Source: Paenibacillus sp. GP183 (GTDB lineage Bacteria; Bacillota; Bacilli; Paenibacillales; NBRC-103111). Taken from it: a DNA stretch of 64,000 nt. The notes below the pieces were generated by a model. It did not search any database. It saw only the letters and a program-made list of their open reading frames with translations, and was not told where the DNA came from. The translations under genes were made by a program, and so were the position numbers. Shown in pieces: positions 56,488 to 58,826 of this stretch. Location of the stretch: positions 124,001-188,000 of the forward strand of contig NZ_FNSW01000001.1 of the NCBI RefSeq assembly GCF_900104695.1, written 5' to 3'. The stretch's first letter is position 1. Each line of letters begins with the position of its first letter.

Positions 56488-57744
56488 TTGGAGAAGCTGG
56501 TTATCGAAGGTGGAAGATCTCTCTCGGGAGCCATCCAGATACACGGCGCGAAAAACGCCGCATTGCCTATTTTGGCGGCATGCATCATGACTGGCGGTAC
56601 CTACACGCTGGGCAACGTTCCGAGTCTGCTCGATATCGATGTGATGCTGCAGATTCTTCGCGCGCTCGGCTGCCGCGCGGAGCAGCAAGGCGAATTCATT
56701 ACCGTTCATACCAGGACCGCACATTCTTCGCATATCCCGGAAGAGCTGATGGGTCAAATGCGTTCCTCGATTTTTCTTATGGGTCCTCTGCTATCCAGAT
56801 TCGGCAGTGTGACAGTCTACCAACCGGGGGGCTGTGCTATCGGAGATCGCAAGATCGACCTGCATCTCAGAGGGCTTCAAGCATTGGGGGCGAACATAAC
56901 AGAAACCGGCAACAAAATCGTTTGTACCGCGGAGAGGCTTCGCGGAGCAGAGATCATGCTTGATTTACCGAGTGTGGGCGCAACAGAGAATATCATGATG
57001 GCCGCCGTTATGGCGGAGGGCGTGACCTCACTTTATAACGCAGCCAGAGAACCGGAAATTCAAGATTTGCAAAACTTCCTGAACACCATGGGCGCTGATA
57101 TTATCGGTGCAGGAACAGACACGATTACCATAAAAGGCGTACCATCATTAATCCCTTGCTCTTATCGCATCATCCCGGATCGGATCGTAGCCGGTACCTT
57201 CCTAGTTGCTGCTGCCATCACGAAAGGCAGTATTAGTCTGGAAAGAGTAAACCCCTCCCATTTGACAGCTGTGATACACATACTGAGGCGTGCAGGTGTT
57301 CAAATCATCATTGACGGTGATATAATACATGTAAGCAATCCGGCTCGTGCCAAGGCTGTGGAGCGAATTGTCACATCACCCCACCCGGCGTTTCCAACTG
57401 ATCTGCAATCTCAAGTCATGGTGCTGCTTTCTCTGGCAGACGGATTAAGTATAATGAAAGAAACGGTATTTGAAGGTAGATTCAAGCATGTGGATGAGCT
57501 TAGCCGCATGGGAGCTGACATCCGCGTAGATTTAAACTCCGCTTTTATCCGCGGCGTTCCGCGTCTTTACGGAGCGACCGTAGAAGCGACTGATTTGCGT
57601 GCCGGCGCCGCATTGGTCATTGCCGGATTGGCAGCCCATGGCACGACGACCGTTGAGCAGATCCATCATATCGATAGAGGGTATGATAGAATTGAGAAGA
57701 TGCTGACTCAATTAGGAGCATCCATCGTCCGGCAATACGCCTAA
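56488..57744 (+). CDS. murA: UDP-N-acetylglucosamine 1-carboxyvinyltransferase MurA
   Basis: 418 residues. First committed step of peptidoglycan synthesis, the target of fosfomycin. EPT fold with VIEGGRSLSGAIQIHGAKNA at the N-terminus and the catalytic C116 in PGGCAIGDRKIDLHL; the cysteine implies fosfomycin sensitivity at the enzyme level. Start TTG 56488 with CGGAGGTGG upstream. B. subtilis has its murA genes outside the dcw cluster; here it follows murB. Confidence 0.95.
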   Translation: MEKLVIEGGRSLSGAIQIHGAKNAALPILAACIMTGGTYTLGNVPSLLDIDVMLQILRALGCRAEQQGEFITVHTRTAHSSHIPEELMGQMRSSIFLMGPLLSRFGSVTVYQPGGCAIGDRKIDLHLRGLQALGANITETGNKIVCTAERLRGAEIMLDLPSVGATENIMMAAVMAEGVTSLYNAAREPEIQDLQNFLNTMGADIIGAGTDTITIKGVPSLIPCSYRIIPDRIVAGTFLVAAAITKGSISLERVNPSHLTAVIHILRRAGVQIIIDGDIIHVSNPARAKAVERIVTSPHPAFPTDLQSQVMVLLSLADGLSIMKETVFEGRFKHVDELSRMGADIRVDLNSAFIRGVPRLYGATVEATDLRAGAALVIAGLAAHGTTTVEQIHHIDRGYDRIEKMLTQLGASIVRQYA

Positions 57745-57772: not shown

Positions 57773-57802
57773 GCCTCTCTTGCTGCACAAAGCAAGGGAG
57801 GC
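57773..57802 (+). terminator. Hairpin after murA
   Basis: GCCTCTCTTGCT pairs with AGCAAGGGAGGC (one T-G pair) around GCACAA, followed by ACATTATTATATTT. The T-tract is poor; it may attenuate rather than stop transcription into divIB. Confidence 0.6.
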
Positions 57803-57823
57803 ACATTATTATATTTGGAAATT

Positions 57824-57952
57824 AGCTTACGATGCCAGTTTGTTCGTATTAAGCATTGCATGCTTAGTCTTTCTCACAAACTCAAGTTTAAGCTTACGAT
57901 GCCAGTTTGTTCGTATTAAGCATTGCATGCTTAATTTAATTCTCACAAACTC
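57824..57952. repeat. Tandem duplicated 67-bp palindromic element upstream of divIB
   Basis: Two copies with a 67-bp period. The first 43 bases of each (57824-57866 and 57891-57933) are identical, and both end in TCTCACAAACTC. Inside each copy TTAAGCAT-TGC-ATGCTTA(A) is a palindrome, and an outer pair AGTTTGT/ACAAACT brackets it, so each copy can fold into a nested hairpin. The second copy ends 3 bases before the divIB ribosome binding site. Confidence 0.93.
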
Positions 57953-57968
57953 TTAGGTGGTGCCCATC

Positions 57969-58826
57969 TTGCCGGAAGACCAGAAAGTACCTCCCTTGCC
58001 AAAACCGCCTGCCCGCCCGCGTTCCAATCGCAAGCTGCTGGCTTTTCTAATTTTATTTTTTGTTACAGTGCTGGTGATTTTATTTTTTCGATCCTCACTC
58101 AGCCGAATTGACGAAATTCAGATTGAGGGCATAGAGCTCATTCCCAAAGAGGTTGTTGGACAAGCTGCTGCTCTTGTACCGGGGGACAGTTTTTTTGCGA
58201 CAAGCGGGACAACCATCGAGAATCGGGTGAAGAGCTTGCCGATGATCAAGTCCGTTAAGGTTACCAAGCACTTTCCGGGCGTGCTGCACATCCAGGTTCA
58301 GGAATTTCCCAAGGTGGCCTTTCAATTCACTGCCGTTGGCAAGACACAGGCTGTTTTGGCCGATGGAACAAGCATCGATTTACCCCCTGGAGACGTTCCT
58401 ATCGATCGGCCTATCCTTAGCGGTTGGACAGATAATGATCCGAACAAGAAACAGCTCTGCAAGGTGCTGGGGGAGATCCAGGCCGTTGCGCTGTCTGACA
58501 TATCGGAAATCAAGCCGGATCCATCCGAATCTTATCCCGATAAAATCAAAATATACACCAGATCCCAATTCGAGGTATATACAACCATTGGCTATTTTCC
58601 GGATAAAATTGATAATCTGCCAGCTTACATTGCCACATTAAAAGAAAATAATGTTTCAAAGGGAGTCATTAAAATGCTGGAAGTGGACAACCATGCCCCC
58701 TTTCAATTGGAGCAGGATAAATCGAGCAGCGACACTAAAGCAACTCCCGTTCCGAGCGCAACACCCAAAGCCACTCCCAAACCAACACCGAAATCAACTC
58801 CCAAAGATACGAGCAAGACAAATTAA
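57969..58826 (+). CDS. divIB: Cell division protein DivIB/FtsQ
   Basis: 285 residues from TTG 57969, chosen because AGGTGG at 57955-57960 is 8 bases upstream (in-frame GTG codons at 57957 and 57960 fall on that site). Cytoplasmic Pro/Lys/Arg-rich head, one transmembrane helix (LLAFLILFFVTVLVILFF), a POTRA domain (IQIEGIELIPKEVVGQAAAL, KSVKVTKHFPGVLHIQVQEF) and a beta domain. The tail is a Thr-Pro-Lys repeat. It is part of the septal DivIB-DivIC-FtsL complex. Confidence 0.92.
   Translation: MPEDQKVPPLPKPPARPRSNRKLLAFLILFFVTVLVILFFRSSLSRIDEIQIEGIELIPKEVVGQAAALVPGDSFFATSGTTIENRVKSLPMIKSVKVTKHFPGVLHIQVQEFPKVAFQFTAVGKTQAVLADGTSIDLPPGDVPIDRPILSGWTDNDPNKKQLCKVLGEIQAVALSDISEIKPDPSESYPDKIKIYTRSQFEVYTTIGYFPDKIDNLPAYIATLKENNVSKGVIKMLEVDNHAPFQLEQDKSSSDTKATPVPSATPKATPKPTPKSTPKDTSKTN

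Follow-up and report, generated by a model that had tools for sequence, protein, structure and literature searches.

What is the tandem pair of palindromic units that lies immediately 5' of divIB, and does it belong to this gene in particular? The pair is located in the window, by which we mean the whole stretch of 64,000 nucleotides of Paenibacillus sp. GP183 that was analyzed. An earlier note on this DNA described a tandem 67-bp duplication of nested palindromes ending at the divIB ribosome-binding site, and proposed that it could be a regulatory operator pair, an RNA switch for DivIB dosage, or a small dispersed palindromic repeat. The description itself is confirmed: two head-to-tail units with a period of 67 bp occupy window positions 57824-57952, the first 43 bases are the same in both, each copy terminates in TTCTCACAAACTC, and the array stops 2 nt 5' of AGGTGG, the Shine-Dalgarno (SD) sequence of divIB, which has one mismatch to AGGAGG. 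The array has a Tandem Repeats Finder score of 228, the top score among 4 rows in the window. The features of the locus are as follows.

56488-57744, forward strand: EPSP-synthase family gene, upstream of divIB and on the same strand; we take it to be murA from its position
57773-57802, forward strand: 12-bp hairpin in the gap between the presumed murA and divIB, terminator-like in a simple scan, outside the repeat
57824-57890, forward strand: unit 1, long subtype, with the core GCTTACGATGCC at 57825-57836
57837-57843/57876-57882 and 57848-57856/57860-57868, forward strand: outer and inner stems of unit 1
57891-57952, forward strand: unit 2, long subtype, with the core at 57892-57903
57904-57910/57945-57951 and 57915-57923/57927-57935, forward strand: outer and inner stems of unit 2
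57950-57960, forward strand: CTCTTAGGTGG, joining the element at its 3' boundary to the divIB SD (AGGTGG, 57955-57960)
57969-58826, forward strand: divIB, FtsQ-type POTRA protein, probable TTG start; Pfam POTRA_1 2.8e-14

The inner palindromes (57848-57868 and 57915-57935) and the outer pair AGTTTGT/ACAAACT are present in both units, and a pattern search matches unit 2 at 57904-57951. When folded, each unit forms a nested hairpin. The fold energies are ordinary (z scores of -1.3 and -0.9 for the two units, and -1.2 for both jointly), and therefore the case for structure rests on comparison rather than on energy. The array adjoins the SD of the coding sequence in the sense orientation, at CTCTTAGGTGG, which is followed by the TTG start; a similar CTNAGG junction is found in most other members of the family described below. 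The start of divIB is probably TTG 57969, 16 nt past the array end, because relatives align there and the GTG at 57957 chosen by the ORF finder falls within the SD. The protein has no NCBIfam match.

The gap upstream of the array contains a separate hairpin after the murA stop (57773-57802, GCCTCTCTTGC...GCAAGGGAGGC). A similar hairpin occupies the same place in a number of relatives, which suggests a conserved terminator or attenuator before divIB; the scan that reports it found 2 terminator-like sites, compared with 0.9 expected by chance. An intrinsic terminator with a GC-rich stem and a T run was rejected as an identity for the repeat, since the scan reports this hairpin and not the repeat units.

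Searching the window unit against its own genome yields many 17-nt matches elsewhere, some of them arranged as 40-bp tandem series, and such scattered copies are what the earlier note had expected of a dispersed element. The core GCTTACGAWGYMAGTTT, which matches both window units with 0 mismatches, has 130 genome matches at up to 2 mismatches, against 11 for the reversed pattern. In total, at least 56 arrays were collected in the genome, 49 from the core pattern and 7 from a covariance model, R1, whose seed consists of 29 of 74 distinct units, hand-picked among those with an 8-4-8 hairpin. The basic unit contains a conserved GCTTACGAWGYM motif, a short hairpin AGTTT...AAACT, and CTNAGGAGG, and the repeat ends at the SD. 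At the RNA level, the consensus shows a conserved motif GCUUACGAWGYM, then a predicted base-paired stem with a freely varying loop, then CUNAGGAGG. The short subtype measures about 36-42 nt and the long subtype about 57-67 nt; the units at divIB are of the long subtype, in which the stem AGTTTGT...ACAAACT encloses about 30 nt. In a 118-kb search, R1, which was built without the window units, gives 25.4 bits (E 7.7e-5) for unit 1 and 29.8 bits (E 5e-6) for unit 2; the whole-genome run scored 150 of 4965 candidates, and the window units are absent from its list. The 67-bp tandem unit at divIB is thus a long variant of a dispersed family.

Arrays contain 1 to 11 units at the model threshold. Because the units within an array mostly have a common loop sequence (exceptions include L068, L087, and L092), arrays seem to grow by duplicating locally and not by one insertion after another. 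When the SD-adjacent unit is compared with the first unit of its array, the former has the better score in 23 of 34 arrays and the latter in 10, with 1 tie (Wilcoxon p 9e-4), the scoring model being trained partly on the same units. The divIB site of G001, the only other genome of the same genus, carries one long and one short unit, so that the near-identical window pair seems to have arisen when the long unit was recently duplicated in place. This orthologous long unit has the same junction, which disposes of both an element absent from relatives and a local assembly duplication, the findings that would have told against the earlier description. In a separate locus of the studied genome (L081, G000:C1 1735597-1736052), eleven head-to-tail units precede a 77-aa ORF, with the core and stem identical in ten of them; it is likely a copy-number-variable locus. 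In the units at L094 (gyrA) and L368 (rpmJ of G021), the hairpin is missing and the GCTTACGAWG motif lies almost directly on the SD.

The positions of the arrays are far from random. Among the at least 56 arrays, 52 lie directly 5' of a coding sequence, in sense. Two others adjoin tRNA genes within 16S-5S-array-tRNA-tRNA-23S operons. The sole clear antisense array (L345, 777-811) has a unit inverted exactly at the 23S 3' end, between 23S and 5S, and L347 is a low-scoring match without a gene. In the first set of 47 coding arrays, the SD is exactly AGGAGG in 42 and matches five of six bases in the other 5, divIB included; for comparison, AGGAGG precedes any candidate start in 14 of 55 window genes under permissive scoring. 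In 36 of the 47, the longest open frame in the 700 nt upstream is on the same strand, and 29 of these frames end within 100 nt; by this crude test, many sites are probably operon-internal. Hence the proposal of a small dispersed palindromic repeat stands as regards dispersion, whereas a scatter without preference does not, given that the copies are in sense and against SDs.

The ORF downstream was named automatically for 44 of 49 arrays, and divIB and two very short ORFs (L059, 26 aa; L098, 25 aa) were identified by separate inspection. NCBIfam scanning of 39 of the 44 downstream proteins, several of which have no match, identified YqfD, XPB helicase, HslU, RimP, CinA, allantoinase, GlgB, TrpD, isopentenyl-diphosphate isomerase, SerA, purine-nucleoside phosphorylase, PheT, PurU, a SagB-type dehydrogenase, GltD, RpmJ, AtpC, and DusB, together with a GyrB/ParE fragment (match below the cut-off) and a GyrA fragment (match just below it). 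FlbD and Asp23 are also among the downstream proteins. The labels groEL, apt, nusB, hrcA, rplX, and atpG, the names of tRNA isoacceptors, and those of the two very short ORFs are presumed. The genes preceded by the element are unrelated and have no common pathway. A regulatory operator pair is not supported, because the same element precedes unrelated genes and stands inside rRNA operons.

Both rRNA operons of the type mentioned above (L091 and L097, at about 3,212,000 and 3,831,500 of G000:C1) have the order 16S-5S-repeat array-tRNA-tRNA-23S. A 5S gene between 16S and 23S is an unusual operon order. A search for empty rRNA sites found none, arrays being present at both tRNA genes of this type. 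In G036, from another family of the order, a consensus repeat adjoins the 5' end of 5S rRNA, before a tRNA cluster (L105).

Covariation supports selection on stem pairing, as expected of an RNA structure. In the 29-unit seed alignment, 98.7% of cells pair, and changes on both sides occur in 7 cells, compared with 1.1 in shuffles. A pattern scan gave 121 elements from at least 120 loci, in which the insert within AGTTT...AAACT lengthens the stem by a mean of 2.49 bp, against 0.56 for shuffled inserts and a maximum mean of 0.82 among 1000 shufflings. For 75 distinct inserts, the extension is 2.51 bp, compared with 1.38 when the 5' and 3' halves are swapped, and the second added pair in 82 distinct inserts is CG in 29, GC in 32, TA in 11, and AT in 2. 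Of the 121 elements, 118 precede a start codon with an ORF 40 or more codons long, the pattern itself already demanding an SD. The motif is among the most constant parts of the element, the loops vary, and the spacing from element to SD is near-fixed. Note that alignment A3 includes antisense matches of the palindromic stem and is excluded from the main evidence. The suggestion of a hairpin RNA is supported by covariation in the family, but not by the ordinary fold energies of the window units. For the long units, RNAalifold draws a mini-hairpin within GCTTACGAAGC, which we do not claim, since several units have a T at position 11 with no compensating change; it finds no conserved helix in the inner 30 nt of the long subtype.

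Orthologous sites indicate how the element fares over time. For rpmJ, 30 loci were fetched of 56 genomes with a match, and 29 were counted, L375 being excluded for a coordinate offset at the contig start. The motif and hairpin are found in 19 of the 29, from three families of the order, with compensatory changes; a hairpin as such is found in 20, compared with a shuffled mean of 4.4 (maximum 11). Pairs at single positions of the stem run through TA, CG, GC, and AT, and pairing is 99% between own arms and 76% between swapped arms. The rpmJ element persists even where hits are few, as in G035 (4) and G007 (7), and is absent from rpmJ in G001. A homologous multi-unit rpmJ array is common to G000, G033, and G021, in which the loops differ and the first-unit stem holds. 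Comparison at the sequence level demonstrates that the units are oriented in sense, multiply in tandem, are under selection for pairing, and have been kept at rpmJ in different families.

Ortholog searches matched divIB in 57 of 59 genomes and hslU in 59 of 59, and 30 loci were read for each. The element is clear at 4 of the 30 divIB loci (G000, G001, G028, G034), perhaps also in G012, and at 2 of the 30 hslU loci. In the genus of G028, none of 13 genomes has a copy at hslU, and no filled/empty pair was obtained there. This sparse presence, together with the unrelated genes that the element precedes, speaks against an RNA switch for DivIB dosage. At some genes the element is thus kept under selection, and at others it has come and gone; judged by its patchy presence before divIB and hslU, the majority of copies seem dispensable to the genes that they precede.

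The family is nearly confined to one order of Bacilli, Paenibacillales. In a set of 59 genomes of relatives, the own genome included, a match is found in 46 at E <=0.1 and in 32 at E <=0.001, and the hits per genome range from 0 to 123, numbers that can include antisense matches of the palindromic stem. A sample of 299 Bacilli gave 28 genomes with a match at E 0.001, namely the own genome, 24 others of the same order, and 3 from outside it that have a single match apiece; the sample also includes at least 2 members of the order without a match. The loci listed by the pattern scan are labeled as Paenibacillus, Gordonibacillus, or MAGs of Paenibacillaceae, apart from two 'Bacillus sp.' strains and one MAG named 'Bacilli bacterium'. 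Only 4 of 98 genomes contain the exact long pattern. Another family of the order often carries a long form: among 40 loci of five genomes, chosen by hand from long matches, 39 contain a long unit by pattern and one does not, and in the 39 an SD lies within 14 nt in 37 and a start and ORF follow in 38. In G014, a repeat copy is located inside a MITE-like element with terminal inverted repeats AGAGTGTGTTTAATAAGT (L109); the top score in this genome is common to eight matches, and these may represent copies of the MITE-like element.

How does the family relate to known elements? In Rfam, the window has one sub-threshold match, outside the repeat, and the repeats of 27 further member loci give only sub-threshold matches, e.g., mir-16 (29.5 of 36.5 bits); the sole match above threshold in those loci is a tRNA in L081, away from the array. 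A known Rfam family (riboswitch, leader, or sRNA) is ruled out accordingly, as none of these repeats reaches the gathering score. Ribosomal-protein leaders and riboswitches are likewise structured 5' UTR RNAs with covariation, and the element also precedes a ribosomal-protein gene, rpmJ; unlike them, it precedes unrelated genes and has no Rfam match at threshold, and in the short subtype the variability of the loops speaks against a ligand pocket. Mimicry of or pairing with rRNA was also rejected: the longest stretch in common with partial 16S, 23S, and 5S sequences is 10 nt, from the loop-and-stem part, and nothing is convincing.

REP, BOX, and other stem-loop repeats are similarly short, dispersed, palindromic, intergenic, and clustered. 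REP elements have random orientation and lie mostly outside 5' UTRs; such placement is ruled out here by the 52 of 56 arrays that are in sense and SD-adjacent. In contrast to REP and BOX, the present element is near-fixed in this position, contains the motif GCTTACGAWG, and has no Y1 dependence. In fact, a REP mobilized by RAYT/Y1 was rejected because no PF01797 match occurs in nine genomes with 28-123 element hits (G013, G014, G021, G028, G030, G033, G034, G044, and G057, some of them draft), of which G034 has 123 hits, G014 100, G030 76, G028 66, and G057 63; G000 itself has 15 PF01797 matches. In the portions of two repeat surveys open to keyword search, Paenibacillus is not mentioned (PMC2267715, PMC12306157).

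Another close likeness is to 5' mRNA stabilizers, such as those of B. subtilis cggR-gapA and Ruminiclostridium cip-cel, in which a hairpin lies near the 5' end of a downstream cistron within an operon; here a hairpin lies near the SD of a cistron that follows another gene in 36 of 47 arrays, by the crude test above. At cggR-gapA, mutational scanning points to the hairpin as the stabilizer of the cleaved product, and this downstream hairpin is not essential for RNase Y cleavage (PMC11780869); for cip-cel, stem-loops are placed at operon junctions (PMC10311766). However, those are single-locus structures, whereas here a single sequence family, joined directly to the SD and marked by a shared upstream motif, recurs at dozens of unrelated loci in each genome. 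A search of open-licence papers for repeats, leaders, spacers, and literal sequences found no description of the element, and the family is apparently both large and undescribed. Hairpins at cistron 5' ends and dispersed stem-loop repeats are already known; their union in an SD-fused, order-wide family appears new.

Our preferred reading, to which we assign a probability of about 0.42, is that the element is a Paenibacillales-wide family of cis-acting RNA hairpins located directly 5' of the SD of individual cistrons and serving in processing and/or stabilization. That it would work in the transcript we infer from its sense orientation, its fusion to the SD, the pairing kept despite sequence drift, and the probable operon-internal sites. 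Most likely, it would create or protect the 5' end of the downstream cistron: an endoribonuclease may cut in or near the conserved motif, and the hairpin would guard the end so formed against 5'-to-3' decay without covering a strong SD; a gene within an operon could thereby gain a stability and translation level of its own. Extra upstream units would be local duplicates that tend to decay, the SD-adjacent unit being kept. RNA ends are favored over translation alone because copies occur at tRNA and 5S boundaries, where processing matters and translation is irrelevant. The conserved motif alone does not point to a nuclease, and several results count against this reading, namely the patchy occupancy at divIB and hslU, the antisense array at 23S, the gene-less L347, the lack of the element at rpmJ in G001, the RNase Y cleavage at cggR-gapA that does not require the hairpin, the ordinary window fold energies, and the 10 of 34 arrays in which the SD-adjacent unit scores lower.

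Some of these results are what would be expected of a selfish or passively spreading hairpin repeat with the target preference TNAG^G, a sequence found in SDs and at tRNA and rRNA ends. Orientation would then follow the target, arrays would arise because every copy supplies a fresh TNAG at its end, and any influence on genes would be a by-product. We consider this a serious rival, although on balance an unlikely one: the patchy occupancy, the copies adjoining SDs, tRNA and 5S starts, and the 23S end, the variation from 0 to 123 hits per genome, and the copy carried within MITE-like inverted repeats all fit, but the loops common within arrays look like local growth rather than repeated insertion, and the rpmJ element persists across families with compensatory changes, even in few-hit genomes. 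In any case, a Y1 transposase is not its motor, since none is found in the nine genomes listed above. Less probable still is a site at which a trans-acting factor, either an RNA-binding protein or a small RNA, reads GCUUACGAWG and the hairpin and thereby co-adjusts the translation of many cistrons. The constancy of the motif beside variable loops and the near-fixed spacing to the SD would suit such a factor, and several units could raise binding avidity; on the other hand, the genes preceded share no pathway, and in the rRNA spacers there is no SD for the copies to control. An operator or internal promoter acting at the DNA level seems very improbable. The inner palindrome could bind a dimer, and one promoter-like match lies upstream of the array (57784-57812), where the scan of both strands of the region found 2 against 1.0 expected by chance; nevertheless, an operator would keep its sequence and not its pairing, whereas these stems covary as the sequence drifts, and the copies are in sense, at a fixed position relative to the SD, and also present in rRNA spacers.

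Returning to the reading as an RNA processing or stabilizing hairpin, the position of these repeats directly against the ribosome-binding sites of many unrelated genes of the Paenibacillus order is suggestive of a previously unseen module for control at the RNA level. In this genome the repeat stands at the ribosome-binding site of at least 52 coding genes, including rpmJ, gyrA, atpC, pheT, hslU, trpD, and serA. If the element sets mRNA ends or translation, it would provide modular, copy-number-variable tuning of operon genes and could serve as a ready-made part for expression in Paenibacillus; a selfish element would be an unusual repeat that settles at ribosome-binding sites. More speculatively, and with some doubt on our part, a dedicated order-wide RNA module might mark selected cistrons, tRNAs, and rRNAs on their 5' side and be read by one common factor, a nuclease or RNA-binding protein, with tandem duplication acting as an evolvable output dial for single operon genes.

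Two further observations concern other repeats. In the window, a 12/24-bp tandem repeat is located at 58758-58806, in the C-terminal coding part of divIB. In relatives, other dispersed-looking hairpins, for example CAGAAAGTATAAGTTTT..., occur near gene starts (L299, L265, L284), and these may represent a second repeat family.
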